Source: Bacteroidota bacterium (GTDB taxonomy: Bacteria > Bacteroidota > Bacteroidia > Chitinophagales > Saprospiraceae). Taken from it: 14,800 nt of DNA. Every line of letters starts with the position of its first letter. The stretch's first letter is position 1. The translations under genes were made by a program, and so were the position numbers. The stretch is taken from contig JAJRQS010000248.1 in assembly GCA_024280135.1 (NCBI GenBank), positions 1-14,800 of the forward strand. Direction: 5' to 3'. The notes beneath the pieces were generated by a model that made no database searches, was not told where the DNA came from, and worked only from the letters and a program-made list of their open reading frames with translations. Below are positions 696 through 14,461 of this stretch, piece by piece.

Positions 696-745
696 TTTTA
701 AAGAAAGCTTTAAAACTCTTAGTAGCGATTAGTCTTGCTATCGCT
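696..745 (-). terminator. Possible weak terminator of the kor-nuo cluster
   Basis: Reading leftward, a 6-bp stem (AGCGAT/ATCGCT, 740-745 with 724-729, plus two inner pairs) overlaps the stop codon of the last gene. An A/T-only hairpin (TTTTAAAG/CTTTAAAA, 696-715) follows. Neither has a strong G/C stem with a clean T tract, so this is only a candidate 3' end for the long transcript. Confidence 0.25.
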
Positions 746-1067
746 CATAATACTGGGGAGAAGTATCGTCCGTCTCCTGATTCCAGTAAGCAGGTGTAAC
801 CTTTCTTCCGTCCAACGTCAATAAACGACGTTGATACACAAAAGTAGTGGGATTAAAAACTAGGTCGGTGGTTGCTACATTATACAAGGTTGGATCCTCT
901 TCTGTCTTGCCAGGGATATCTTGAATAATGATTTCAAAACCATTGTGTTCGAGCAGTTCTTTAAGAAAGTGCATGCGTTTTTCATCGACTTTCTTTTCGA
1001 CAAAAGAGACGATGTTTTCATCCGTTTTATTCAACTTACCAAATACGTTTTTTCCTAAAAATGCCAT
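738..1067 (-). CDS. Unrecognised 109-aa soluble protein, last gene of the nuo cluster
   Basis: No family is recognised. The ATG at 1067 lies 5 bp after the nuoN stop, so the gene is almost certainly cotranscribed and perhaps translationally coupled with nuoN. The product is hydrophilic, with no membrane segment, no signal peptide and no cysteine, so it cannot itself carry a Cys-ligated iron-sulfur cluster. Residues 1-50 are Lys/Glu-rich and look helical (for example EKKVDEKRMHFLKELLEHNG). Residues 50-100 look like strands and contain the string VYQRRLLTLDGRKVTPAYW. The tail is acidic and ends in YYER. Its position suggests an accessory, assembly or electron-input factor for the NuoEFG-less complex I, but position is the only evidence. 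It may equally be a passenger gene. Confidence 0.75.
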   Translation of the reverse strand: MAFLGKNVFGKLNKTDENIVSFVEKKVDEKRMHFLKELLEHNGFEIIIQDIPGKTEEDPTLYNVATTDLVFNPTTFVYQRRLLTLDGRKVTPAYWNQETDDTSPQYYER

Positions 1068-1072
1068 GATGC

Positions 1073-2488
1073 TTAGTTTGAAGCGAGTTGAAGAATATAT
1101 TCATAAAATGGGCTGTACATGCCTAATACTAATATTCCGATAACGGATAAGGCTAAGCCTATTTGGACAGGCCATTCATTCTTAAAGAATGCGATTGGTT
1201 TATCTGACTTGCGCAAAAACATAGCCCGAACCACCAACAAATAATAATATAAAGAAATGGTCACATTAATAACACCAATGATGACCAACAGATAATAATT
1301 GTGTGCAGCGGCTGACATGAACAAAAAGAATTTGCCAAAAAAACCTGCAACGGGTGGTATGCCCGCAAGGGAAAACAAACCTAACAACATCACTAATGCC
1401 AATTTTGGATTGGTTCGATATAAGCCATTGTAATCATCCATTTGCTCTTTGCCCGTCTTTAGGCTAATGACTTGTACCACACCAAAAGTAGCCAAGTTGG
1501 AAAAAATATAAATGGCCGAGAAATAGATAACTGAAGTCAAACCCATTTCGTCAAAAGCTAAGATACCCATGAGGATAAATCCTGCTTGTGCCACTGATGA
1601 AAAGGCCAAAAATCGTTTCATGTTTTTTTGCCGCAAGGCGAATAAGTTTCCTACCGTCATCGTCAATATGGCCAACCAAAACAAAGCTGGTTTCCATACC
1701 GTCGTCATCCCTTTACCTATCTGAAAGAGAATCAATATCATCGCGAATACCGCAGCAGCTTTAGAGATAACTGACAAGAAGGATGACACTGGAACAGGTG
1801 CACCTTCATATACGTCAGGTGTCCAAAAATGAAAGGGAACCAACGAAATCTTAAACGCCAAGCCCGACATAAACATGAGCAAAGCAATAGCACTTAACCC
1901 TGTCAAATGGAAACTTTGAGCCACTTCCGTAAAATAAATGGACCCTGTAATTCCATAAATCAGAGAGATTCCAAATAACATCACCGCCGACGAAACACCA
2001 GCCATCAGGATGAATTTTACACCTGCTTCGGCAGAACGTTTCTTCGCCAAATCAAAAGCCACCAATCCAGCTACTGGCAAAGAAGCCAATTCTAACCCCA
2101 AGAAAAACATTAAAAAATCACCGGCAGAAATCATGTAATACATCCCCAAAACCGTTGAGAATAAAATAATATAAAACTCTGTCAAACGGTTTCTATTACT
2201 CCATTTTACACGTGCCCATGTCCATGTCTGTAATAGTAATATCAAAACCCCAACATTGAGGATGTTTTTCATATTATGGTGCAAGTGAGTTGTCTGAAAG
2301 CTTCCACCAAACATACTTCCCTCTCCTAATGGCATAAAACCAAAAGCCGTATGCAAAGCAAATAAACCAGTGGCAATACCCACCACATTTTTCTTGTCTT
2401 TGTCTGTCAACAAAATTTCCACCACTAATAAAAGTAGGATAATTCCTAACAGAACAAATTCATCACGCATTAATAAAAAATTATTCAT
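1073..2488 (-). CDS. nuoN: NADH-quinone oxidoreductase (complex I) subunit N
   Basis: This is an antiporter-like membrane subunit of the complex I arm, translocating protons coupled to quinone reduction in the cytoplasmic membrane. At 471 aa it is slightly shorter than the roughly 485 aa of E. coli NuoN, with about 14 hydrophobic segments. The key ionisable residues are all present: Glu133 (GLELASLP, TM5), Lys213 (AFKISLVPFHFWTPD, TM7), Lys243 (ISKAA, TM8) and Lys386 (GFFGKF, TM12, where NuoN typically has Lys). The WTPDVYEGAPVPVS signature (222-235) distinguishes NuoN from NuoL and NuoM. The ATG at 2488 follows a 78-bp spacer after nuoM that holds no convincing gene. Its stop is 5 bp before the terminal small gene. 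Confidence 0.97.
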   Translation of the reverse strand: MNNFLLMRDEFVLLGIILLLLVVEILLTDKDKKNVVGIATGLFALHTAFGFMPLGEGSMFGGSFQTTHLHHNMKNILNVGVLILLLQTWTWARVKWSNRNRLTEFYIILFSTVLGMYYMISAGDFLMFFLGLELASLPVAGLVAFDLAKKRSAEAGVKFILMAGVSSAVMLFGISLIYGITGSIYFTEVAQSFHLTGLSAIALLMFMSGLAFKISLVPFHFWTPDVYEGAPVPVSSFLSVISKAAAVFAMILILFQIGKGMTTVWKPALFWLAILTMTVGNLFALRQKNMKRFLAFSSVAQAGFILMGILAFDEMGLTSVIYFSAIYIFSNLATFGVVQVISLKTGKEQMDDYNGLYRTNPKLALVMLLGLFSLAGIPPVAGFFGKFFLFMSAAAHNYYLLVIIGVINVTISLYYYLLVVRAMFLRKSDKPIAFFKNEWPVQIGLALSVIGILVLGMYSPFYEYILQLASN

Positions 2489-2566: not shown

Positions 2567-4054
2567 TTAATACCCACTATGACTCAATTGCTCTACAATC
2601 GGAGCCAAACTATCTTGAATTAAACTCACCAACCAATTTGGCGCAAGCCCTATAGCCATCACCGGCAATAAAACCAATAAAGCACCCACTTTTTCGTACC
2701 ATACGGCTTTAGGTAAATCTTCAAACTCTTGATGCTTTATAGGGCCCATCAACATCATTCCGACCACTCGTAAAATATAAACCGCTGTCACTACTATTGC
2801 CGATACCGCCAAGATCGAGAATATTCGATGTATGGTATCTGGGTTCTGGAAAGCACCAACAAAAATATGCATTTCGGCAACGAAACCACTCAACCCGGGA
2901 AGTCCCAAAGAGGCCATTCCTATTATCATATAGACTACTGCAATGAAGGGTAAAACCTTGAGTAAGCCGCCCATTTTTCTCACATCCCGAGTATGTGTTC
3001 GACCATATAACATGCCGATGAGGGCAAAGAAAACGGCTGTCATCAAGCCATGTGATATCATTTGTAATACGGCGCCAGTATATGCCGTCTTATTTAATGC
3101 CATCATTCCAAAAAATATTAAGCCCAAGTGACTTACGGAAGAATAAGCATTGATGTATTTTAAATCTGTCTGGCGGATTGCTCCAAAAGCTCCATAGATA
3201 ACCCCTATCGCTGCCAAGCCCATAAAGAAAGTGGACATTTCATTGGCTGCATCCGGCATTAAATACATGGCAACTCGAAAAGCTCCATAAGTCCCCAACT
3301 TCATCAATACACCAGCATGCAACATCGAAACAGCAGTCGGTGCCGAAGCGTGTCCGTCGGGTGACCAAGTATGAAATGGGAACAAAGCACCCAACACTCC
3401 GAAACCTACAAACGCCATCGGAAAGAAAAACCGTTGTGCCACTATCGGCATGTGTGCATGTGCAATCTCTTGCATATTAAAGGTCTGTCCAGAGAAATAA
3501 TAAATGCCCAAAATCGCCACCAATAACATCGCTGAAGCACCCATTAACATTAAGGTTAATTTCATTGCCGCATATTCTTTTGGACCCGTTCCCCAAATAC
3601 CAATTAATAGATACATCGGAATGACCGCCACCTCATAAAACAAAAACATGGTAAACAAATCCAACGAGATAAAAAATCCAAACACACCTGTTCCCAAAAT
3701 AATTAAAGAGATATAAAATTCTCTTGTCAGGTCTTCAATATTCCAAGAAATAAAAATCCCTGCCAACAACACAATCGCTGTCAGTAACAGCATCGCCACC
3801 GCTATTCCATCGACCCCAACAAAATAATGGATATTTAGACTCTCAAACCAAGTAAAATCTTTGGTCATTAAAAATTCAGAGGTGTCACCAGAGCCTCTTG
3901 ATGCGACGTAATTTCGGGTCACAAAAAAGGTCACAATTGTTTCCACAAACATTCCTGCGGCAGCGATAATTCGTACCATCTGCATATCCTTCACGAAAAA
4001 CAGTATAAAAACTGTAAGCATCGGAATGACCACTAATAAACTCAGTATATCCAT
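2567..4054 (-). CDS. nuoM: Complex I subunit M, lacking the TM7 lysine
   Basis: This is the middle antiporter-like subunit of the proton-pumping arm. It has 495 aa and about 14 membrane helices. The family signature is clear: WSPDGHASAPTAVSMLHAG at 230-248, then VLMKLGTYG. Glu141 (FYEVAVIPM, TM5), Lys252 (TM8) and Glu394 (FVAEMHIF, TM12) are present. Aligning FGVLGALFPFHTW with the E. coli segment FAVKMPVVPLHGW places Leu221 where the conserved, functionally essential TM7 lysine (Lys234 in E. coli) should be. His245 on the next helix resembles NuoL rather than E. coli NuoM. The ATG is 6 bp after the nuoL stop, with AAAGGA just upstream as a likely ribosome-binding site. The subunit is otherwise intact, so this is not a decayed gene. 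Confidence 0.96.
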   Translation of the reverse strand: MDILSLLVVIPMLTVFILFFVKDMQMVRIIAAAGMFVETIVTFFVTRNYVASRGSGDTSEFLMTKDFTWFESLNIHYFVGVDGIAVAMLLLTAIVLLAGIFISWNIEDLTREFYISLIILGTGVFGFFISLDLFTMFLFYEVAVIPMYLLIGIWGTGPKEYAAMKLTLMLMGASAMLLVAILGIYYFSGQTFNMQEIAHAHMPIVAQRFFFPMAFVGFGVLGALFPFHTWSPDGHASAPTAVSMLHAGVLMKLGTYGAFRVAMYLMPDAANEMSTFFMGLAAIGVIYGAFGAIRQTDLKYINAYSSVSHLGLIFFGMMALNKTAYTGAVLQMISHGLMTAVFFALIGMLYGRTHTRDVRKMGGLLKVLPFIAVVYMIIGMASLGLPGLSGFVAEMHIFVGAFQNPDTIHRIFSILAVSAIVVTAVYILRVVGMMLMGPIKHQEFEDLPKAVWYEKVGALLVLLPVMAIGLAPNWLVSLIQDSLAPIVEQLSHSGY

Positions 4055-4060
4055 GTCAAA

Positions 4061-5998
4061 TTATCCTTTAAAATCAATGATGCCGTTCAAATAGAGAACC
4101 GCAAAAATTATCACCAACAGACCCAAAATAAAAGAAAAAGCATATTGTCTGACCCGCCCCGATTGCCAATCTTCTAGCATCATCGAAAACGTTTCCGTTA
4201 TCCATCCTATCCCATTCATAAATCCATCCACTATATTTTTATCAATCCAAGCAACAGGTGCCGCGACTCCTGCAAACATCATTTTGTGTGCAAAAAATTG
4301 ATAGACTTCATCCATATAAAATTTGTCCTTAGCCCAGGTATATCCTTGTCCAAACATCTCCGATACTCCATCCGCCAATGTGCTTTCTTTCTTGTATAAA
4401 ATATACGCTACCAATATTCCAATCAAACCAACACCAACAGACGCTCCTGCCATCATTGGATCAATATGAATATCGTACAATGCTCTATCTGCCGTTACAA
4501 AATGTCCAAAAGGAATAAACCCAATAAACACTGTCGCAATGGCTAATATTAGTAATGGCAATGACATGGTCAAAGGCGACTCATGTGGTGTGTGTTTGTA
4601 CACGGTTTCTTTACCCCAGAAAATACCAAAATAAATTCGGAACATATAGAAAGCCGTAAGTCCTGCTACGGCATATTCTATTGCAAATAAGATTTTGTTT
4701 TGCTCGAAAGCAGCTGCCAAAATTTCATCTTTACTAAAGAAACCTGAGAATGGAGGCACGCCCGAAATTGCCAAACAAGCTATCAGAAAAGTAATATGCG
4801 TTATTGGCATATATTTGCGCAAGCCGCCCATATCTTTCATCAAATTACTATGTACTGCGTGAATCACTGAACCTGCGCCTAAGAATAACAATGCCTTAAA
4901 CATCGCATGGGTAAACAAGTGAAACATTGAAGCCATGTATCCTAATCCATGATGTCCTTCCATCCCAGAAACACCTAAAGCCAACATCATATACCCAATC
5001 TGCGACATCGTAGAATAAGCCAATACACGTTTGATGTCATCCTGCGTCATCGCTATTATTGCTGCAAACAAAGAGGATATCGCACCCGTCCAAGCAACCA
5101 GATGTAATACAGCACCACCATCTACACCTTGGAAAGCAGGGAATAGTCTTGCGACTAAATAAACTCCAGCAACCACCATCGTAGCGGCATGAATCAAAGC
5201 CGAAACAGGCGTTGGGCCTTCCATTGCATCGGGTAACCAAATATGCAAAGGAAACATAGCCGACTTACCCGCACCCCCTACAAATATCAAGGAAAGTGCC
5301 ACACCAAAAATCGAAAGCCCCATAAATACCGGTGGAGCTGTTTGTGCCAAAAGAGGGCCATCCTCACTCACCAAAGTCATAAAATCAAAAGTTCCTGCGT
5401 GAAAGGACAGTAATAATATACCTATCAAAAAACCTAAATCCGCAAAACGAGTAACAATAAAAGCTTTCTTTGCTGCCGACACAGCCGAAGGTTTATCGTA
5501 ATAAAAACCAATTAAAAGATAAGAGCTTACGCCCACTAATTCCCAAAAGAAATATATCTGAAAAATATTCGTCGCTACTACTAGCGCCAACATCGACACA
5601 CTGAATAAGCTTAAAAAAGAAAAGAATTTATAATAACCTTGATCTCCATGCATATAACCAATGCTATAAAGGTGCACCAAAAAAGAAACCGTCGTCACCA
5701 CCACCAACATCAAAACTGATATCGGGTCTATCAAGATCCCCATATCAAAAACCAGTGTATCGGTAAATTTCATCCAAACTTCTTTATACGCAAAAATGGT
5801 CGGACGAATGCCATCCACAAAACCCACTTGAAAAAAGTATTCGTATGCTGTTTTGTATGCTAATAGCATAGCGGTAGCCATACTAGCTGTTCCTATCCAG
5901 CCTGATATTTTTGCGGGCATTTTCTTTCCAAGTAATCCCGTGAATAGGAATACTAAAGTTGGTAGAATCAAAATCCATATTGTAAATTTAAAATCCAT
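4061..5998 (-). CDS. nuoL: Complex I subunit L
   Basis: This is the distal antiporter-like subunit with the long lateral helix at its C terminus. It has 645 aa, within the usual range of about 610-650. Visible key residues are Glu153 (FFWELVGVSSYLLIGF, TM5), Lys245 (GGAGKSAMFPLHIWLPDAM, TM7), His270 (ALIHAATMV, TM8) and Lys423 (GFFSKDEI, TM12). The tail (about residues 560-645) has an amphipathic stretch and a final hydrophobic helix (about 620-640), consistent with an intact lateral arm. The ATG at 5998 follows a 130-bp spacer after nuoK, the largest gap in the cluster. nuoM follows after 6 bp. Confidence 0.97.
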   Translation of the reverse strand: MDFKFTIWILILPTLVFLFTGLLGKKMPAKISGWIGTASMATAMLLAYKTAYEYFFQVGFVDGIRPTIFAYKEVWMKFTDTLVFDMGILIDPISVLMLVVVTTVSFLVHLYSIGYMHGDQGYYKFFSFLSLFSVSMLALVVATNIFQIYFFWELVGVSSYLLIGFYYDKPSAVSAAKKAFIVTRFADLGFLIGILLLSFHAGTFDFMTLVSEDGPLLAQTAPPVFMGLSIFGVALSLIFVGGAGKSAMFPLHIWLPDAMEGPTPVSALIHAATMVVAGVYLVARLFPAFQGVDGGAVLHLVAWTGAISSLFAAIIAMTQDDIKRVLAYSTMSQIGYMMLALGVSGMEGHHGLGYMASMFHLFTHAMFKALLFLGAGSVIHAVHSNLMKDMGGLRKYMPITHITFLIACLAISGVPPFSGFFSKDEILAAAFEQNKILFAIEYAVAGLTAFYMFRIYFGIFWGKETVYKHTPHESPLTMSLPLLILAIATVFIGFIPFGHFVTADRALYDIHIDPMMAGASVGVGLIGILVAYILYKKESTLADGVSEMFGQGYTWAKDKFYMDEVYQFFAHKMMFAGVAAPVAWIDKNIVDGFMNGIGWITETFSMMLEDWQSGRVRQYAFSFILGLLVIIFAVLYLNGIIDFKG

Positions 5999-6128: not shown

Positions 6129-6446
6129 TCACCCGCTCAAACTATCCATTTCATCAGCATCAATCGAATTATCCATCCGATAAAAGCTAATAATAATCGC
6201 AATCGCTAACGCCACTTCTGCCGCTGCTACGGCTATCAAAAACAAGGTAAATATATACCCTTGGATATTTCCAGGATATAAAAACTTATTAAAAACCACA
6301 AAATTCAACGCAACTGAATTTAGCATCAATTCAATTGAAATCAATAACGATATCATATTCTTTCGAGTCACAAAACCAAATAGACCGACAAAAAAAATAA
6401 TAGTCGACACCGCCAAAACATCAAAGACTCCTATTCCTTCAATCAT
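6129..6446 (-). CDS. nuoK: Complex I subunit K
   Basis: This is a small three-helix membrane subunit linking the quinone-side charge path to the antiporter-like subunits. The ATG at 6446 gives 105 aa, close to the usual 100, and an 8-bp overlap with nuoJ. An upstream in-frame GTG at 6470 would add eight residues (MKNLKRKI) and is less likely. The two conserved membrane glutamates are present: Glu39 (LISIELMLNS) and Glu77 (AAAEVALAI). The C-terminal tail is acidic (DADEMDSLSG). The overlap with nuoJ suggests translational coupling. The gene is followed by the unusual 130-bp spacer before nuoL. Confidence 0.95.
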   Translation of the reverse strand: MIEGIGVFDVLAVSTIIFFVGLFGFVTRKNMISLLISIELMLNSVALNFVVFNKFLYPGNIQGYIFTLFLIAVAAAEVALAIAIIISFYRMDNSIDADEMDSLSG

Positions 6447-6963
6447 TATCTTCCGTTTTAAATTTTTCACCTTTCGAAATAATTATTGCGGCTATCATCA
6501 CTGCCAACAACAAAACACTAACTACCTCAAAAGGCAATACAAATCCTCCTTCCCCTAAAGTCAAAAGCTTTACACCTATATCTGACACACTTACTTGTTC
6601 TGTGCCTACTATCCGCTCAAAAGGAAATTGCCGCATCGTCGTGAGAAACAAAATCGCTCCTGCTAGCAATGTCCCGCCTTTCCATAAATATTCGAAAGTA
6701 GGAATTTGCTCCAGTCGATGCTCAATATTATGCACCAGTAAAATTGCTATCACTATCAACACCGCAATACCGCCAGAGTACACTGTCAATTGCACACCAG
6801 CCAAAAAATTGTACCCAACCAAAAAGTAAAAACCTGCCAATAAAATCATCACAAACAACAGATATACTGCCGCCCGAATCACTCGTGTAGTCGTCACAGA
6901 CAGAATTGAAAACAGAATCATCAACCCAGCCAATATGTAAAAAATTATTTTTGCTCCCATCAT
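6439..6963 (-). CDS. nuoJ: Complex I subunit J
   Basis: This is a five-helix membrane subunit at the junction between the quinone module and the pump arm. It has 174 aa. The signature GVQLTVYSGGIAVLIVIAIL (57-76) contains the conserved Tyr62 and the flexible Gly-rich helix (TM3, the pi-bulge region in structures of homologues). Two adjacent ATGs (6963 and 6960) could start translation, and an AAAGAA stretch sits about 8-13 bases upstream. The start is 9 bp after the nuoI stop and the end overlaps nuoK. The C-terminal GEKFKTEDND is polar and cytoplasmic by analogy. Confidence 0.93.
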   Translation of the reverse strand: MMGAKIIFYILAGLMILFSILSVTTTRVIRAAVYLLFVMILLAGFYFLVGYNFLAGVQLTVYSGGIAVLIVIAILLVHNIEHRLEQIPTFEYLWKGGTLLAGAILFLTTMRQFPFERIVGTEQVSVSDIGVKLLTLGEGGFVLPFEVVSVLLLAVMIAAIIISKGEKFKTEDND

Positions 6964-6972
6964 TTATGTTCT

Positions 6973-7449
6973 TTATTCTTCGACTCCGTCCATTAATTTA
7001 GAACCGGGTTTATTTAAGACTTTCGTCAAAGCCGTTCTATCAAAAACGGCATTTTCAAATTTTTTGGCCATTTTGATAGCATCTGTTGGACATGCCACGA
7101 TACACAAATTACACATCGTGCACATCGACAAGTGATAAATGTGATTCACGATATACTTTTTCTTTTTACCTGTTTCTTCATCTACTTTTCTATCCCATAC
7201 AATTTCGATTGAGCCATTGGGGCAAGCAATCTCACACGCTTGACAACCCGTGCACCGATGCTCATTATTCTCATCATGAGGCATCACAACTTCACCACGA
7301 AAGCGTTCAAACATCTCCAGTGTATCTCGGTTTTCTGGATATTGTTGCGTAATAATCTCTTTCCGAGCATTTAAGAAATATTTGCCGGTGACTTTCATGC
7401 CCGACAGCAACGTTTTTATTCCTTTTCCTATGTCTCCAAAATAACTCAT
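6973..7449 (-). CDS. nuoI: Complex I subunit I, 2x[4Fe-4S] ferredoxin-like
   Basis: NuoI carries clusters N6a and N6b and passes electrons towards NuoB. Two CxxCxxCxxxCP motifs are intact: Cys66/69/72/76 and Cys110/113/116/120. The reading frame is open upstream to 7557, overlapping nuoH by 79 bp. I choose the ATG at 7449 (MSYFGDIGKG) because NuoI homologues start near here, the upstream 36 residues look like out-of-frame nuoH sequence, and AGAGG lies upstream in the 29-bp gap. This gives 158 aa. A Lys-rich insertion (EETGKKKKY) separates the two cluster motifs. Because NuoE, F and G are missing from the cluster, NuoI is the most upstream recognisable Fe-S carrier of the complex here and the likely electron entry point (inference). 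Confidence 0.95.
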   Translation of the reverse strand: MSYFGDIGKGIKTLLSGMKVTGKYFLNARKEIITQQYPENRDTLEMFERFRGEVVMPHDENNEHRCTGCQACEIACPNGSIEIVWDRKVDEETGKKKKYIVNHIYHLSMCTMCNLCIVACPTDAIKMAKKFENAVFDRTALTKVLNKPGSKLMDGVEE

Positions 7450-7478: not shown

Positions 7479-8555
7479 CTACAAGTGCCAGCCCATCAAA
7501 ACAATAAATGCCATCAACAAAATATTTGCTAAATTCATGGGTAACAAATACTTCCATTCTAATGTTAACAACTGGTCAATTCTCAATCTTGGAAAAGTCC
7601 ACCTAAACCACATAATTAAAAATATTAAAAAGCTAACTTTTCCAAAAAACCAAAAAATAGGTGGAATAAAATCCATAACATGATTAAAACCATCCCAGCC
7701 GCCAATATGCAAAGGCATCCAGCCGCCAAAAAACAATATCGCACCCATCGCTGCAATGATGAACATGTTCACAAACTCCGAGAGAAAGAAAAAAGCAAAT
7801 TTTAATCCTGAGTATTCGGTATGAAATCCAGCTCCTAATTCCGACTCTGCCTCTGTCAAATCAAAAGGTGTCCGATTCGTCTCCGCTGTACCAGCTATTA
7901 TAAAAATCATAAAAGCAATCCAAGCTGGAATATGTCCTTTAAATATAAACCAGTAATCAGATTGACTCGCTACAATATCAGACATCCGTAAACTTCCAGA
8001 CAATAAAACTATCGTCAAAATAGACAACCCCACAGACAACTCATAACTAATCATCTGAGCACCCGACCGCATTGCACCCAAAAGCGCATATTTATTATTA
8101 CTGGCCCAGCCACCCAACAAGATACCCATGACACCCAAAGAAGACATTGCTATCACAAAAAAAACACCAATGTCAATATCATAAGCATGTAAGCCTTTTG
8201 CAAAAGGCAAAACAGACATGGACATCAATGCCGCAATAATCACAAAGTAAGGAGCTAAATTGTATAAAAAGGAATCTGCTCGATTCGTCCCAACTGGCTC
8301 TTTTAATAATAATTTTATGGCATCTGCCACCGTCTGAAAGATCCCCCAAGGACCTATGCGATTGGGGCCCAAACGCAATTGAAAGAAAGCTGCAATTTTT
8401 CTTTCGGCAAGAACCAAGACCAATCCCAATATCGCAAACAACCCCAAAAAAGCTGCTGCAATTAATATCCACCCCACCACGTCTGCTGCGACAGCAGGCA
8501 AGATGCTGTGTAACCACTTATTTATTCCTTGAATCAGGCCTGTAAAATCATACAT
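7479..8555 (-). CDS. nuoH: Complex I subunit H
   Basis: NuoH is the membrane subunit that forms the quinone chamber with NuoB and NuoD and starts the charge path. It has 358 aa and about eight hydrophobic helices. Visible signatures are [18 protein letters not shown] (49-66) and [20 protein letters not shown] (225-244), the acidic loop that lines the quinone site and couples to proton transfer. The gene starts 11 bp after the nuoD stop. In the common 14-gene order, nuoE, nuoF and nuoG sit exactly between these two genes, so their absence here is direct and clean, with no remnant. Stop TAG at 7481. Confidence 0.97.
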
Positions 8556-8566
8556 AGGCTTACTTT

Positions 8567-9694
8567 TTATCTGTCAATATCTGGAATCACAAAATCAAAG
8601 GTTGCCATTATTGCAACCAAATCCGCCACTTTCCATCCTTTCGCTAAATGATCAATCACCGAAAGATTTGAAAATCCTGGTGACCTAAATTTCATTCGAT
8701 AAGGGCTTTTTTTACCATCACTAATAATATTAGCACCAAACTCTCCTCTAGCTGTTTCTACCCTTTGGTAGAATTCTCCTTTGGGTAATTTGATTACTGC
8801 TTTTGTCTTTTCAAGAATCTCTCCTTCAGGAATATTATCAATTAATTGTTCGATAATATGCATCGATTCCCACATCTCTAAAATCCGAACACGATACCTT
8901 TCAAACGTATCACCTTTTGTCCCCAAAATTTCTTTGAATTCCACTCTATCATAAGCCGAATAAGGATGCTTTTTACGCAAGTCACAACGCACACCTGAAG
9001 CCCTTGCTCCGGGTCCCGTAACGCCAAAAGAAATCGCATCTTCTTTAGAAAGAATCCCGATTCCTTCTGTCCTTTTCCGAAAAATGACATTATCCGAAAG
9101 CAAGGTGTCGTATTCGGGTAGTTTTGTTTTGAAGTGTTTGATAAAATCCTTGACACGCTTTTGAAAATTAGGATGTATGTCCCACATCAAACCACCGGGC
9201 ACAAAATAATTCATCGTCAACCTAGCTCCACACGTTTCCTCAAAAATATCATTTATCATTTCGCGATCTCGGAAGGCATACATGAACGTCGTCAAAGCAC
9301 CTGTATCCATTCCTATTACCCCCCACCAAAGTTGATGCGAAGATAATCGAGTCAACTCCGTCATAATCGTCCGAATAACCTTCACTCGATCTGACACTTC
9401 AATTTGTAATCCTTTTTCAACTGCCAAACATACCGCTTCATTATTCATGTGTGCCGACAAGTAATCCATTCTGTCCGTCAAGTGAACTATTTGGCGATAT
9501 GTATCAAACTCTGTCATTTTTTCAATCGAACGGTGAATATATCCAAGGTCAGCATCGACTTTTCTAACAATTTCACCATCCAAGGTCAATAATAATCTCA
9601 ACACGCCATGTGTCGCAGGATGCTGCGGACCCATATTGATAAAATACTCTTCTGTTTTTCCTTGTGGATTGATGATTAGTTCTTCTGTTTTCAT
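8567..9694 (-). CDS. nuoD: Complex I subunit D (49-kDa-type, quinone site)
   Basis: NuoD forms the quinone-binding site next to cluster N2 and descends from the large subunit of NiFe hydrogenases. It is 375 aa and separate from NuoC, not fused as in E. coli or Bacteroides. The motif [14 protein letters not shown] (21-34) includes the conserved quinone-contacting histidine (His29). LTDRMDYLS (72-80) includes the conserved Tyr78. The C terminus DFVIPDIDR is the family ending. There are no Ni-binding cysteine pairs, as expected for complex I rather than hydrogenase. The ATG at 9694 is 3 bp after the nuoC stop, so the two are probably translationally coupled. Confidence 0.97.
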
Positions 9695-9697
9695 GAC

Positions 9698-10171
9698 TTA
9701 GCGCTTCACAATGTTAACGGTATCGACATAATCTTTCCGCAATGGATGTCCAACCCAATCTTCCGTCAAAAACAATCTACGTAAATCTGGATGACCTTTA
9801 AAACGTACACCTAACAAATCAAAGACTTCTCTTTCGTGAAATTCAGCTGTTCGAAAAAGATCCGAAACGGTATCTAAAACCGCATTTTCTCCTCTATCCT
9901 CTGTTCGAGCTTTAACCACCAATATCAAACCCAAAGTAGTTGATTCTAAATGATAAATCACCTCTAAGTATTTAGGATAATCTACCCCTGTGAGACAAAA
10001 CATAAAGTCCAACTTTGTCTGTTCATCGTCTCTTAGCTTGCGCAAAAAATGACGCAAAGAAGCACGAGGCACTACAACCGTTACGTACTCTAGGCTATCT
10101 TCGGTAAACTCCAAATCGGGAACCCAATCTTGAATAATAGCTTTTATATTTTCATTTTTCATCTTATTCAT
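9698..10171 (-). CDS. nuoC: Complex I subunit C (30-kDa-type)
   Basis: NuoC is a cofactor-free peripheral-arm subunit packed on NuoD and NuoB. It has 157 aa, near the usual bacterial size. The family motif is clear at 112-121 (HEREVFDLLG), followed by GHPDLRRLFLTEDWVGHPLR (127-146). Two starts are possible: ATG at 10171 (MNKM) or ATG at 10162 (M4), the latter with a better-spaced GGA about 12 bases upstream. The gene lies 25 bp after nuoB and 3 bp before nuoD. Confidence 0.95.
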   Translation of the reverse strand: MNKMKNENIKAIIQDWVPDLEFTEDSLEYVTVVVPRASLRHFLRKLRDDEQTKLDFMFCLTGVDYPKYLEVIYHLESTTLGLILVVKARTEDRGENAVLDTVSDLFRTAEFHEREVFDLLGVRFKGHPDLRRLFLTEDWVGHPLRKDYVDTVNIVKR

Positions 10172-10196
10172 TCCAAGCTTAATTCTTTAAATCTCC

Positions 10197-10754
10197 CTAA
10201 CTCTTTCCTTCATCAAATCCATCAATTGGATTCACTTTGCTCTTATTGTTGGTCCCTCGGATCTTCTTTTGCAATAAAATCATTCCATCTAATAATGCTT
10301 CTGGTCTCGGTGGGCAGCCTGGAATATACACGTCTACAGGTATTACATGGTCTGCGCCTTTTACAACAGAATAAGAGTTATAGAAAAAGGGTCCACCTGA
10401 TATTGCGCAAGCACCCATAGCGACTACGTATTTAGGTTCAGCCATTTGATCGTACAACCTTCTTAGGACTGGAGCCATTTTATTAACAATAGTTCCTGCT
10501 ATGACAATGACATCTGCTTGGCGGGGTGTAGGCCTAGCGACTTCCATCCCAAATCTTGCCCAATCGTGTTTGGCAGCACCTGTTTGCATCATTTCGATAG
10601 CACAACAACTGGTTCCAAAATACAACGGCCAAAGCGAATTCGATCGCCCCCAATTCACAATTGCATCCAACGACGTCACGACGATATTTCCGCCATTTCC
10701 AGCAGGAATAATTCTTCCTGGAAAATCTTCCCCCAATTCTTCTTTCATTCCCAT
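10197..10754 (-). CDS. nuoB: Complex I subunit B, carries cluster N2
   Basis: NuoB holds the terminal [4Fe-4S] cluster N2 that reduces quinone. It has 185 aa. All four ligands are visible: the tandem Cys50-Cys51 ([11 protein letters not shown]), Cys116 ([10 protein letters not shown]) and Cys147 ([13 protein letters not shown]). The ATG at 10754 overlaps nuoA by 10 bp. A second ATG at 10748 forms an ATGA overlap with the nuoA stop and is an equally plausible coupled start that would remove two residues. The C-terminal tail ([17 protein letters not shown]) is polar and unremarkable. Confidence 0.97.
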
Positions 10755-11095
10755 TTAAAAGCTCTTTTTTTGTATGCATATAAAAGCCCCAATCCCAAGA
10801 TTACAATAAAAATAACAATCTCCACAAAGGCCACTATTCCTACTTTTTTCATTGCTACAGCCCACGGAATTAAAAAGATAGTTTCTACATCAAATATTAA
10901 AAACAAAATGGCTATCAAGAAATACCCTACTTTAAATTGCACCCAAGTCGAACCTATCGTCTTCATCCCACTTTCGTACGGTTCCCACTTATCTGGATTA
11001 GTACTTTTTGGTGAAAGCAACTTAGCAGCAATCGCTCCACCTCCAACAAAAACCAATCCGGCAATAAAAAAAACTACAATGGCTTCAGCTCCCAT
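10745..11095 (-). CDS. nuoA: Complex I subunit A
   Basis: NuoA is a three-helix membrane subunit next to the quinone module. It has 116 aa. The loop motif [12 protein letters not shown] (37-48) and the membrane acidic pair in [12 protein letters not shown] (Asp69, Glu71) match the family. It is the first nuo gene but not the first gene of the cluster: it starts 20 bp after the korB stop. That gap is too short for a convincing independent promoter and terminator, so korAB and nuo are probably one transcript. Its stop overlaps the nuoB start. Confidence 0.95.
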
Positions 11096-11115
11096 TATTT
11101 TTAATTTTAATTTCG

Positions 11116-12123
11116 TTAATCTAACATATATGTTTCTCCGGCATTCACCAAGTCATCAAAAGTAATTCCTTTTGACAGTTTAATACGTTCTTCTACTTGA
11201 TTAACAAATCGCTCATCAAATGACATTTCTTCCACGGCACGAATAACACCTGTCACAATTGGATTTGACATCCGAGCCAGCATAAAGTGCAAAGTTGGGT
11301 TTGGATTTTTTGCATCATGCGTTAAAATATCCTCTTCGGTAATCCCATCTTCTCCAATGGTTACAACTTCCAATTCCAGACCCTTTAGGCGCAAACCTTT
11401 ATTTAATTCTGCCCCAAAAAGCATCTTCTTTCCATGCTCCACAAAGACTTGGTTATCTGCGCGTGTTTCTTTGCTATTAAACAAGTCAAAAGCACCATCA
11501 TTAAAGATGACACAATTCTGCAGTACCTCAATAAAAGAAGTACCTTTGAAGGATTCTGCTTGCACAAAAATTGCGGTTAATTCCTTTGGTTTATTTCCAG
11601 ATATTCTTGCAAAAAACCGGCTGTTTGCACCTAGCGCTAACTCCGCAGGATTGAAAGGTGGTTGTGTATTTCCGAAAGGAGAAGTCTTCGTTTTTTGACC
11701 CAATAAGGAAGTCGGGGAAAATTGACCTTTCGTCAATCCATAAATCTCATTATTAAACAAGATAATATTCATATCTACATTCCGACGAATGGCATGAATT
11801 GTATGATTCCCTCCTATCGCAAGTGCATCTCCATCTCCTGTCACCACCCAAACACTCAATTTCGGGTTTGCTAATTTTACACCTGTCGCAACCGCTGCCG
11901 CACGTCCATGGATGGTATGCATTCCATAGGTATTCATATAGTATGGAAAACGAGAAGAACAACCAATGCCCGAAATAAAAACAATATCTTCTTTCTTTCG
12001 TCCAATTTCAGGAAGCGCTTTTTGAACAGCTCTTAGAATGACATAGTCATCGCAACCTGGACACCAGCGTACCTCTTGGTCACTAGCCATGTCTTTGTGT
12101 GTATATTTTTTAACATCTGTCAT
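11116..12123 (-). CDS. korB: 2-oxoacid:ferredoxin oxidoreductase subunit beta (2-oxoglutarate-type)
   Basis: The beta subunit binds thiamine diphosphate and the [4Fe-4S] cluster that passes electrons to ferredoxin during CoA-dependent oxidative decarboxylation of a 2-oxoacid. It has 335 aa. Four candidate cluster cysteines match the spacing known in this family: Cys21 and Cys24 (WCPGCDDY), Cys54 (GIGCSSRFPYY) and Cys204 (EVLQNCVIF). The ThDP/Mg motif is GDGDALAIGGNHTIHAIRRN (96-115), continued by NNEIYGLTKGQFSPTS. The HGRA element (72-75) and overall length fit KorB more than pyruvate-specific PorB. 2-oxoglutarate is the likely substrate, but this rests on family resemblance. The gene lies 29 bp after korA and 20 bp before nuoA. 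Confidence 0.93.
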   Translation of the reverse strand: MTDVKKYTHKDMASDQEVRWCPGCDDYVILRAVQKALPEIGRKKEDIVFISGIGCSSRFPYYMNTYGMHTIHGRAAAVATGVKLANPKLSVWVVTGDGDALAIGGNHTIHAIRRNVDMNIILFNNEIYGLTKGQFSPTSLLGQKTKTSPFGNTQPPFNPAELALGANSRFFARISGNKPKELTAIFVQAESFKGTSFIEVLQNCVIFNDGAFDLFNSKETRADNQVFVEHGKKMLFGAELNKGLRLKGLELEVVTIGEDGITEEDILTHDAKNPNPTLHFMLARMSNPIVTGVIRAVEEMSFDERFVNQVEERIKLSKGITFDDLVNAGETYMLD

Positions 12124-12152
12124 TTTATTATTATTTTGCTTTGACGAAAAGA

Positions 12153-14018
12153 TTAAACGGTGACTTCTGAATTCATTAATAGATCATAACGAGCAATCAA
12201 CTCAGACCCTGTAAAAGGCAATCCTTGCACCTTATTGTATTTGAAATACTTATGTTCTGGAAACTCCCCACGCAATATTTTAACAAACTGACCTTCGTTC
12301 AATTCACAAACAACAATTTTCTTAAAACGCGTAAAGACTTCAGCCGTATTTTTAGGCATTGGATTGATATATTTAAAATGTGCCAAACCAACACTTTTAC
12401 CTTGTCCAGCCATACTCATGACCGCTGTATGAAGCGCACCATAAGTGCCACCCCAACCAACAACTAACAATTCCCCTTCTTGAGCTCCTTCTACTTCCAA
12501 TTCTGGAATATAATTTTCTACTCTTTTTACTTTTTCTGCTCTGATTTTCACCATTGCTTCATGGTTATTGGGATCCATGTTTACGTTTCCCGTTTCCATG
12601 TTTTTTTCCAAGCCTCCGACTCTATGTTCAAACCCTTCCATCCCTGGATAAGCCCACTCTCTAGCTAACGAATCTTTATCTCTAATATAAGGTGACCACC
12701 CCTCAGGATCTTTACGAACCGTTCTAGGCGTAATTTCTGGCAATTCTGACAGTTTCTTAATCAACCAAGGTTCAGAGCCATTAGCAATATATCCGTCAGT
12801 CATTAAAATAACAGGTGTCATATGCTCTAAAGCCAAACGAGCAGCCTCAAAAGCCATATCAAAACAATCAGAAGGCGAACTGGCCGCTAAAACTATCACA
12901 GGACTTTCTCCGTTTCTTCCATACATTGCTTGAAGCAAATCAGATTGCTCCGTTTTTGTAGGCATACCTGTTGAAGGGCCTCCTCTTTGAACATCCACAA
13001 TAACTATTGGCATTTCCATAATCATGGCTAAACCAATTGCTTCACCTTTTAGTGCAAGCCCTGGACCTGAAGTCGTCGTAATCGCCAAGTCGCCAGCAAA
13101 CGAAGCACCTATCGTAGATGCGACACCTGCAATCTCATCTTCCGCTTGAAAAGACTTCACTTTAAATTCTGGGTGCTTAACTAATTCATGCAAAATATCT
13201 GAAGCTGGAGTGATGGGATAGGAACCTAAAAACAATTCTTTTTCCGCTTTATTCGCTGCCGCAATGAACCCCCAGGCAGTCGCTTGATTACCCATGATAA
13301 TACGGTACTTACCTTTTTTTAATTTTGCAGGTCTGACTTGATAAGTCGTTGCAATCAATTCTAAATTTTCTGCATAAACATTACCAGCTTTCAAGGCTCT
13401 AGTATTTGCCTCGATGATAATTTCTTTATTCTTAAATTTTCTTTTGAAGAAATCAATGGTATGTTTCATATCCCGACCATAGATCCAATAAATCATTCCG
13501 AGCGTAAACATGTTTTTACTCCTGTCCATTGCCTTCGCTTGCATACCCAAGTCCAATAAGGCCGCTTTTGTCAAACTTGTAATGGGTGCTGCAATTACTC
13601 GATAACTTTCCAAACTACCATCCTCTAACGGATTAGTATCATATCCCGCCTTCTTCAAATTCTTCCTAGAAAAAGCATCTGTATCTAAAACTAGCATTTT
13701 GCCTGGAGCAAGGTCACGGAGATTAGTTTTCAACGCTGCAGGATTCATCGCCACTAGCATATCCAAATCATCTCCCGGAGTAGATATAATTTCACTTGCG
13801 ATTTGAACTTGAAAACCAGAGACACCATAAATACTCCCTTGGGGAGCACGGATTTCAGATGGATAATTCGGGAAAGTTGCAATATCATTTCCCATTAAAG
13901 CAGAAGTATCTGCAAATTGCGTCCCCGTCAACTGCATACCGTCACCAGAATCACCTGCAAAGCGAACGACAACTGAGCCAATTTCATTAGACGAAATATT
14001 CGAAAGTTTTGTATCCAT
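12153..14018 (-). CDS. korA: 2-oxoacid:ferredoxin oxidoreductase subunit alpha (gamma-alpha fusion)
   Basis: This is the catalytic partner of KorB. The ATG at 14018 gives 621 aa; the frame is open to a TTG at 14042 but that start is less likely. The N-terminal gamma domain (about 1-190) opens with VVRFAGDSGDGMQLTGTQFA. The alpha domain follows, with YPITPASDILHEL (from 267), FQAEDEIAGVASTIGASFAG, TTSGPG (315-320) and GGPSTGMPTKTEQSDLLQ (346-363). A C-terminal transketolase-C-like domain (about 510-621) ends it. No ferredoxin-like delta domain exists here or as a separate gene, consistent with the two-subunit KorAB class. It is the first gene of the cluster, with a 443-bp upstream region carrying a candidate promoter. 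Confidence 0.93.
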   Translation of the reverse strand: MDTKLSNISSNEIGSVVVRFAGDSGDGMQLTGTQFADTSALMGNDIATFPNYPSEIRAPQGSIYGVSGFQVQIASEIISTPGDDLDMLVAMNPAALKTNLRDLAPGKMLVLDTDAFSRKNLKKAGYDTNPLEDGSLESYRVIAAPITSLTKAALLDLGMQAKAMDRSKNMFTLGMIYWIYGRDMKHTIDFFKRKFKNKEIIIEANTRALKAGNVYAENLELIATTYQVRPAKLKKGKYRIIMGNQATAWGFIAAANKAEKELFLGSYPITPASDILHELVKHPEFKVKSFQAEDEIAGVASTIGASFAGDLAITTTSGPGLALKGEAIGLAMIMEMPIVIVDVQRGGPSTGMPTKTEQSDLLQAMYGRNGESPVIVLAASSPSDCFDMAFEAARLALEHMTPVILMTDGYIANGSEPWLIKKLSELPEITPRTVRKDPEGWSPYIRDKDSLAREWAYPGMEGFEHRVGGLEKNMETGNVNMDPNNHEAMVKIRAEKVKRVENYIPELEVEGAQEGELLVVGWGGTYGALHTAVMSMAGQGKSVGLAHFKYINPMPKNTAEVFTRFKKIVVCELNEGQFVKILRGEFPEHKYFKYNKVQGLPFTGSELIARYDLLMNSEVTV

Positions 14019-14112
14019 TGAATATAAAATTTTGTTAATCAAAGCATTACCTCGCTATACACGATTAGGTTTACTTAGCTATGATCAATTAAAAAAATGA
14101 TTCAAAAACTGT

Positions 14113-14137
14113 TCGAGCTTATGTCTCGACAAATCTA
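14113..14137 (-). promoter_or_regulatory. Candidate korA-nuo promoter element with adjacent inverted repeat
   Basis: On the minus strand, TAGATTTG (14137 to 14130) matches the Bacteroidota -7 element TAnnTTTG exactly. No clear TTTG lies at the -33 position; the sequence there is A/T-rich. Directly downstream is a TCGAG/CTCGA inverted repeat (14113-14117 and 14125-14129) that could be an operator or an early transcript hairpin. The implied 5' leader before the korA ATG is a little over 100 bases. Confidence 0.35.
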
Positions 14138-14396
14138 CAATAAAAAAAGATATAAATAGGCTTTTAAAAAGTTTTATTTGACAATTTTGTTATTTAGAAT
14201 TAGTTTAAAAAGCAAACTTTTTGAAACAAAGCTTTTCGTTCTTTTAAAAATGCTTTAACCTTGTGTAGCAGACAAATGCACAGAATGTGTAGGGTTTCAT
14301 GATGACTTGTGTTCCTGATGAAGCAAATATTGAAGACGAAACGACTCTTCTTGCTAAGAAAACCAAGTTACACGGTAAGTAGAATTTACTTGCGCA

Positions 14397-14429
14397 AAAA
14401 AAGACCTGATCTATTGAGTGGTCTTTTTT
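14397..14429 (-). terminator. Terminator after paaD (potentially bidirectional)
   Basis: AAAAAAGACC (14397-14406) pairs with GGTCTTTTTT (14420-14429) across a 13-base loop. Read leftward, it lies 32 bp after the paaD stop and ends in a run of seven T. Only four pairs are G/C-containing, but the flanking A and T tracts are strong. It separates paaD from the korA transcription unit, and by symmetry could also stop a rightward transcript. Confidence 0.65.
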
Positions 14430-14461
14430 CAAAACACCCAAATATTTACTAAAGAATGCTT

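Follow-up and report, generated by a model that had tools for sequence, protein, structure and literature searches.

A korAB gene pair at an eleven-subunit complex I cluster in Bacteroidota: a candidate ferredoxin-mediated entry of 2-oxoacid electrons into respiration

From which donor does a complex I without NuoE, NuoF and NuoG receive its electrons? The question is raised by the window, a stretch of 14,800 nucleotides that makes up an entire contig (C300; JAJRQS010000248.1) of a Saprospiraceae bacterium with a genome assembly of 2.53 Mb in 414 contigs (79.7% complete), in which the genes of a two-subunit 2-oxoacid:ferredoxin oxidoreductase, korA and korB, directly precede all 11 of the genes nuoA,B,C,D,H,I,J,K,L,M,N. 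As the first-pass annotation of this DNA had stated, and as the open reading frame (ORF) map together with the hairpin and family scans bears out, korA, korB and nuoA are spaced by only 29 and 20 bp with no terminator-like site between them, and no nuoE, nuoF or nuoG is found in the window, to which the search for NuoE and NuoG was confined. The comparisons set out below favor, with a probability of roughly 0.6, a respiratory entry module in which KorAB would reduce a ferredoxin and the ferredoxin would feed the 11-subunit complex I.

KorAB and its linkage to nuo

KorA scores 650.1 bits against the TIGR03710 model (cut-off 482.75), is also above cut-off for PF01855 and PF01558, and has as its best solved relative 6n2n_A (E 1.4e-75), from a structure that we take to be that of the Magnetococcus marinus enzyme. 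KorB is above cut-off for PF02775, its best solved relatives are the beta subunits 8ys5_C and 6n2n_B, and its nearest named relatives belong to Flavobacteriaceae and other Bacteroidota. The four candidate cluster cysteines of KorB that had been pointed out earlier, C21, C24, C55 and C204, are indeed invariant in all five aligned KorB sequences, each pairs with a cysteine of 8ys5 and 6n2n, and they are presumably the cluster ligands. No ferredoxin domain is found in KorAB by the family scans (TIGR, Pfam), and an outside acceptor is therefore needed (compare PMC5020499; the literature is cited here and below from excerpts). The substrate is most likely 2-oxoglutarate, to judge by homology, with succinyl-CoA and CO2 as the expected products. 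By our reading of the alignment, the position of Lys49b of StOFOR is occupied by Arg in the window KorB, as it is in 8ys5 and 6n2n; in StOFOR1, the K49R exchange favored pyruvate (PMC5020499).

Within a family sample of 199 genomes, NuoD was found in 32 (E 1e-60), ten of which carry the window type (matches of at least 74%) and 22 only another type (39-46%). korAB lies directly upstream of nuoA in all ten window-type genomes, in one case (G272) split over two contigs, with korA-korB-nuoA-nuoB on C46 and nuoC-nuoD on C190. The match lists (KorB at E 1e-80) place korB on the nuoD contig in none of the 22 other-type genomes (Fisher p 1.6e-8 for adjoining nuoA versus sharing the nuoD contig; this and later p values are indicative only, since related genomes are not independent); other-type nuo regions were inspected in G266, G398, G418 and G291, and the kor region in G389. 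KorB matches of at least 64% are limited to 11 genomes, the ten of window type and G298. The distribution of NuoF is the reverse: it is above its curated cut-off in 22 genomes, namely 21 of the 22 of other type (in the remaining one, G398, nuoF is cut at a contig end) and G355, and nowhere in any of the ten window-type genomes, the window's own being 79.7% complete. A NuoF query likewise gave no match in the linked family regions (L184-L192 and L200).

The linkage is not confined to this strain or to the family, as a survey of gene neighborhoods in named and class-level relatives illustrates. Among the best 80 named KorB loci, nuoA directly follows korB (at about 10 to 520 bp) in 11, from Lutibacter (L035, L036, L041, L044), a Salegentibacter metagenome-assembled genome (MAG; L034), MAGs labelled Flavobacteriaceae, Flavobacteriales or Bacteroidetes (L039, L042, L043, L045, L049) and a Cyclobacteriaceae MAG (L054). 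A NuoD search of 20 of the first 22 named genomes (all except L039 and L052, and including some small, perhaps incomplete MAGs) found none at E 1e-40 in nine of the ten unlinked genomes (L051 has two) and recovered it in nine of the ten linked ones, where it is present by definition (the L045 contig stops in nuoB). At L059 / L022, korA is recovered by tblastn in two overlapping pieces, possibly a frameshift or an assembly error in that MAG.

In a class sample of 247 genomes, in which KorB occurs in 168 (E 1e-30), window-type NuoD (at least 52%) is found in 45 listed rows, and 40 of the 44 outside the window were inspected (all except G003, G050, G128 and G199). korAB adjoins nuo in 11 of these 40 regions, co-directionally in three (G014, G215 and G109, the last with fdx-korA-korB-nuoA all in one direction) and head-to-head in eight genomes from four families (G018, G143, G037, G077, G100, G064, G220, G178). 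Among the matches listed, from which the KorB of G178 is absent, a korB within 8 kb of nuoD occurs in 11 of the 45 window-type rows versus 1 of the 105 others (p 6e-6), or in 11/40 versus 1/56 when only genomes with a listed KorB are counted (p 2e-4); NuoF was not verified row by row for the other type. The single other-type case, G164:C67, is the only listed korB near an other-type nuoD; it faces nuoF and is apparently convergent.

In a KorB tree of 144 rows, the eight head-to-head rows form one clade together with one unlinked row, and the 24 co-directional rows lie outside it, at several positions separated by unlinked rows (family f1 with Flavobacteriaceae; L049; f16 with L054; f59). In the NuoD tree, one part holds 20 of 21 co-directional rows and another all eight head-to-head rows, and unlinked rows occur in both. 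These topologies suggest that korAB and nuo were paired at least twice, or that loci were rearranged and their KorAB replaced. In the window, korAB and nuo are putatively co-transcribed; scans of positions 10700-14461 give no terminator-like hairpin in either of the two gaps, and their overall yields (3 terminator-like hairpins versus a shuffled mean of 2.7, and 11 promoter-like sites versus 9.9) are at background, so that they neither prove nor refute a common transcript.

Ferredoxin and the NuoI loop

A ferredoxin gene at korA is a frequent third partner of the linkage, being present in 6 of 10 family loci, 8 of 11 named linked loci and 6 of 8 head-to-head loci (20/29). In the family it is intact and divergent from korA in G375, G272, G337, G354, G411 and G322, is reduced to a remnant in the window and is not seen in the regions of G325, G286 and G386; it is also divergent in the eight named loci (L039 begins within korA), leads the kor run in all head-to-head loci except G077 and G178, and is not seen in the co-directional class loci G014 and G215. 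The encoded protein resembles the 2[4Fe-4S] ferredoxins 1blu, presumably the Allochromatium protein, and 2fgo, and is strongly acidic (isoelectric point 4.15, net charge -17). The earlier proposal had left open whether KorAB docks on complex I or shares a ferredoxin with it; the frequency of the ferredoxin gene supports the second version, and direct docking, for which no evidence of an interface was looked for, is unsupported.

The first-pass annotation had overlooked two features, a decayed gene for this ferredoxin (14265-14379, plus strand) and a second korAB copy. The latter (L032) lies on C101, a contig of 6.6 kb assigned to the same genome by binning, and its KorB and KorA are 86% and 84% identical to the window copies; this contig carries no nuo genes, but has a divergently oriented ferredoxin gene (104 aa, 4121-4435) that is intact. 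The window remnant occupies the same place and orientation upstream of korA, and consists of two pieces, each about 79% identical to the L032 ferredoxin (tblastn, E 5.6e-11), that lie in different frames, with the N-terminal half gone, an internal loss and a broken frame. The two sister species of the same genus, G375 and G272 (97 and 100% complete), retain an undamaged ferredoxin gene at this position (L184, L200), and each genome has a single KorB match at E 1e-80, at nuo. The window and C101 copies are sisters in the KorB tree (support of 93 in the Shimodaira-Hasegawa-like approximate likelihood ratio test, below the mark of 95), which suggests a korAB duplication in this lineage followed by loss of the ferredoxin gene at the pump-side copy. 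Both korAB copies are under purifying selection, with nonsynonymous (dN) and synonymous (dS) divergences of 0.095 and 1.29 for korB, and a dN of 0.10 with saturated dS for korA.

A candidate docking site is found on NuoI, where a basic tract (GKKKK or a variant) lies between the two cluster motifs in 53 of 55 window-type loci with a motif match (56 tried): in 20/20 co-directional loci, with L204, L205, L054, L190 and L238 passing as tract variants only, in 8/8 head-to-head loci and in 25/27 unlinked loci. The net charge of the loop ranges from 0 to +4 in window-type NuoI (without L213, a spurious motif match whose real NuoI lacks the lysine tract; the tract of L240 is weaker) versus 0 to -4 in 20 of 21 other-type loci with a match, although a loose basic-triplet rule also passes 6 of 20 other-type loops, there at a net charge of 0 to -2. 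An insertion in NuoI was considered and rejected, as loop lengths of 33-36 versus 30 or 37 indicate a change of charge and not simply a longer loop. An acidic ferredoxin and a basic NuoI loop make docking of the ferredoxin on NuoI plausible, in linked and unlinked clusters alike; the tract thus speaks for a ferredoxin-like partner rather than for KorAB, and may mark ferredoxin use in general. Most of the unlinked rows L206-L243 share the tract, including those of family f34, whose nuoC and nuoD look fused.

In the proposed module, KorAB would oxidize a 2-oxoacid, most likely 2-oxoglutarate, and pass the electrons to the small acidic 2[4Fe-4S] ferredoxin, which would deliver them to the outermost NuoI cluster of the complex lacking NuoEFG; from there they would travel through NuoB to (mena)quinone, with proton pumping by the membrane subunits. 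We infer the substrate, the direction of flow, the docking on NuoI and the pumping; quinone reduction and proton translocation are predicted activities of the window complex. The redox drop from 2-oxoglutarate to menaquinone would be sufficient for pumping. With the pump-side gene decayed, the window's own genome would rely on the second korAB-fdx locus for ferredoxin in trans. NADH would be left to Na+-NQR: NqrF is present in all ten window-type family genomes (and in 11 of the 22 other-type genomes, and in G014 and G215), and NADH therefore has its own entry point in the family.

Competing explanations for the electron donor

Several observations weigh against the proposed module. The window's own ferredoxin gene is lost, and absences carry little weight in a genome that is 79.7% complete. 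KorB, at 249.2 bits, falls just below the TIGR02177 cut-off of 261.9, although this score is not a biochemical feature and the homology of the window product to KorB is clear, and no 2-oxoglutarate-specific model is above its cut-off for KorAB. No NqrF match was found in the linked non-family genome G109. Eight of the 10 family genomes, including the window's own, encode SucA of the NAD-linked 2-oxoglutarate dehydrogenase, and KorAB is therefore an alternative route in most of them; in G322 and G411 (each 96% complete), which have no SucA match, KorAB may be the sole 2-oxoglutarate-oxidizing enzyme. The first-pass view of a 2-oxoglutarate-to-quinone route accordingly holds in so far as the conserved korAB-nuo unit fits a 2-oxoacid-to-quinone logic, the preference for 2-oxoglutarate being drawn from homology, and its phrase that a tricarboxylic acid (TCA) cycle step is coupled "directly" to proton pumping was overstated. 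In addition, korAB does not adjoin nuo in 29 of the 40 class regions that carry window-type NuoD (four of them hardly assessable, as G068 and G120 start too close for a judgement and nothing but nuoD is visible in G022 and G102), G044 has a ferredoxin gene alone at nuoA with korA about 5.6 kb beyond orf109, the NuoI basic tract does not distinguish linked from unlinked clusters, and a single old linkage with many losses would also be compatible with the trees.

The unlinked regions and the tract they share would suit a complex I fed by a general pool of reduced ferredoxin, from pyruvate, hydrogenase and other sources, with KorAB as one supplier and the neighborhood reflecting shared regulation; several donors have also been proposed for such complexes (PMC11238625). 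We consider this unlikely, given the linkage in 10/10 family genomes, the two KorB clades linked in two arrangements and the nine of ten named genomes with unlinked korAB that lack NuoD. Operation of the same components in reverse, in which complex I driven by the proton-motive force would reduce ferredoxin from quinol and KorAB would reductively carboxylate succinyl-CoA, has precedents in KorAB enzymes able to run backwards (PMC2773412, PMC11304471) and in the reverse flow through complex I to ferredoxin proposed for Nitrospina (PMC3578206); it appears improbable for genomes whose SucA (8/10) and NqrF (10/10) suggest oxidative, respiratory heterotrophs. A direct docking of KorAB on the NuoBCDI arm, with electrons passing without ferredoxin, would account for a window in which the ferredoxin gene is a remnant while korAB stays under selection, and for the five linked loci named above at which no ferredoxin gene is seen, and is nonetheless quite improbable in view of the ferredoxin gene kept in most linked loci and intact at the second copy in the same genome.

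The complex might, alternatively, be completed by a NuoF-like diaphorase encoded elsewhere and be an NADH dehydrogenase after all. NuoF-like proteins below cut-off do occur in 9 of the 10 window-type genomes versus 42 of 167 genomes with neither NuoD type (a hand count, from which G355 is excluded together with the genomes above the NuoF cut-off), which is a further point against the module. Ten such loci were taken from the nine genomes and the neighboring genes scanned in six: they include formate dehydrogenase above cut-off in G272 and G337 and hydrogenase-like genes below cut-offs in G411 and G354, in contrast to the stand-alone looking genes of G286 (beside UvrA) and G325 (no family); gene sizes, and these only, liken G322 to G411, and the G375 and G386 loci lie near contig ends. 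In the window's own, incomplete genome, no NuoF-like protein is found at E 1e-60, and the B. fragilis nuo cluster without EFG gave no measurable share of NADH:quinone activity (PMC7002350). Such an N-module as donor is thereby weakened, and we hold it to be very improbable. That korAB and nuo are chance or historical neighbors with no functional tie is scarcely credible: operons can be conserved by descent and the compared rows are related, but the pairing recurs in separate clades and arrangements and contrasts with other nuo clusters.

The KorAB-ferredoxin-complex I module thus remains our preferred account. A more far-reaching version of it is tentative and would fall somewhat short of even odds: the donor to the Bacteroidota 11-subunit complex I would be a dedicated KorAB-ferredoxin pair, the whole acting as a 2-oxoglutarate:quinone oxidoreductase and proton pump that came together on two or more occasions, in co-directional and in head-to-head form, with the lysine-tract NuoI as its ferredoxin port, and in the lineage of the window the pump-side korAB would have split from its ferredoxin-bearing twin and specialized on the pump.

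Locus features and relation to known systems

The korA start is taken as the ATG at 14018, an alternative TTG start at 14042 being open as well, and the nuoI ORF is open from 7557, upstream of the Met chosen as start (Table 1). No Rfam match is found in the window.

Table 1. Coordinates of genes, gaps and remnants in the window.
Feature	Position	Strand	Basis
nuoN	1073..2488	-	antiporter family; name assigned from gene order
nuoM	2567..4054	-	antiporter family; name assigned from gene order
nuoL	4061..5998	-	Pfam scan
nuoK	6129..6470	-	family scan
nuoJ	6439..6963	-	family scan
nuoI	6973..7446	-	start at Met where relatives start; two cluster motifs with lysine tract between
nuoH	7479..8555	-	family scan
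nuoD	8567..9694	-	family scans
nuoC	9698..10171	-	family scan
nuoB	10197..10754	-	TIGR01957 above cut-off
nuoA	10745..11095	-	family scan
korB-nuoA gap, 20 bp, no terminator-like site	11096..11115	-	ORF map and hairpin scan
korB, thiamine pyrophosphate (TPP) / single-cluster beta subunit	11116..12123	-	PF02775; TIGR02177 just below cut-off; 8ys5_C, 6n2n_B
korA-korB gap, 29 bp, no terminator-like site	12124..12152	-	ORF map and hairpin scan
korA, fused gamma/alpha subunit, 2-oxoacid:ferredoxin oxidoreductase	12153..14018	-	TIGR03710, PF01855, PF01558, 6n2n_A
Remnant of divergent 2[4Fe-4S] ferredoxin gene (pseudogene)	14265..14379	+	tblastn of L032 ferredoxin
Part of PaaD-like protein (zinc ribbon PF23451) at contig end	14462..14800	-	Pfam scan
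orf109, small conserved gene after nuoN, no Pfam family	738..1067	-	nuo clusters of relatives, protein search

The small gene orf109 follows nuoN in many window-type nuo clusters, whether linked to korAB or not (27-57% identity), and is not seen in the nuo clusters of f34 or G109. A protein search returned 78 proteins including itself, among them named ones from Salegentibacter, Muriicola, Pontibacter and Rufibacter, and its product is possibly an extra subunit or assembly factor of window-type complex I. As a candidate docking subunit, orf109 was set aside, since its model (predicted local distance difference test score 79.7) matches no PDB entry at E 0.001 or better. Elsewhere, a third, distant NuoD type (34-36%) lies beside NuoB/NuoI-like genes in G411, G322 and G272 (L193, L194, L195), with two NuoL-like genes in two of the three loci, and perhaps belongs to a membrane hydrogenase or formate-linked relative of complex I. 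The fetched stretches of L215 (G022) and L218 (G102) contain a window-type nuoD with no other recognized nuo genes.

The 2-oxoglutarate oxidoreductase of Campylobacter is encoded by four genes, oorDABC, unlike the window enzyme, a two-gene KorAB placed in front of nuoA. In Campylobacterota, as proposed here, electrons from this oxidation enter a complex I without NuoEF, likely via a small carrier, with flavodoxin or ferredoxin from Oor and Por as feeders in C. jejuni and its relatives (PMC6682613). The precedent, invoked in the first-pass annotation, is a partial match: that complex keeps NuoG (PMC7002350) and has NuoXY in place of NuoEF (PMC6682613), whereas the window cluster lacks NuoEFG, and its nuoD-nuoH spacing of 11 bp has no space for extra genes such as NuoXY. 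The absence of nuoG refers to the window, the rest of the genome not having been searched for it. A closer resemblance in gene content is to the nuoABCDHIJKLMN clusters without EFG of Bacteroides fragilis, Desulfitobacterium hafniense and Melioribacter roseus, for which the donor is given as an unknown donor X in the first and ferredoxin is suggested in the other two (PMC7002350, PMC11238625, PMC3534657); in the available excerpts, no korAB linkage is described for any of them, and none was seen in f34, the family of the class sample taken as Bacteroides-like. The fused gamma/alpha KorA with KorB is shared with the enzymes of M. marinus (6n2n) and Mycobacterium tuberculosis (PMC2773412), which, in contrast, are not described as tied to complex I in the excerpts cited.

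Cyanobacterial NDH-1 has extra docking subunits (NdhS/V/O). It is also an example of a ferredoxin-fed complex I without an NADH module (PMC11238625), and a ferredoxin-fed 11-subunit complex I has already been proposed (PMC3534657, PMC7509429, PMC11238625). What appears to be new here is the wiring of korAB to the 11-subunit nuo cluster and a ferredoxin; ferredoxin feeding itself is known, and the physiology parallels that of Campylobacterota. No description of this genetic unit was found in the literature searched, coverage of which was partial, so that an earlier account is possible. A common donor protein has been sought for complexes lacking NuoEFG without success (Moparthi and Hagerhall, 2011, via PMC11238625); the conserved korAB-fdx-nuo unit names a candidate, and its presence in deposited strains, for example Lutibacter agarilyticus DSM 29150 (L035), makes the question testable. 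If the proposed module is correct, low-potential electrons of a TCA-cycle step would skip NADH and reach the proton pump, and NADH would be left to Na+-NQR.

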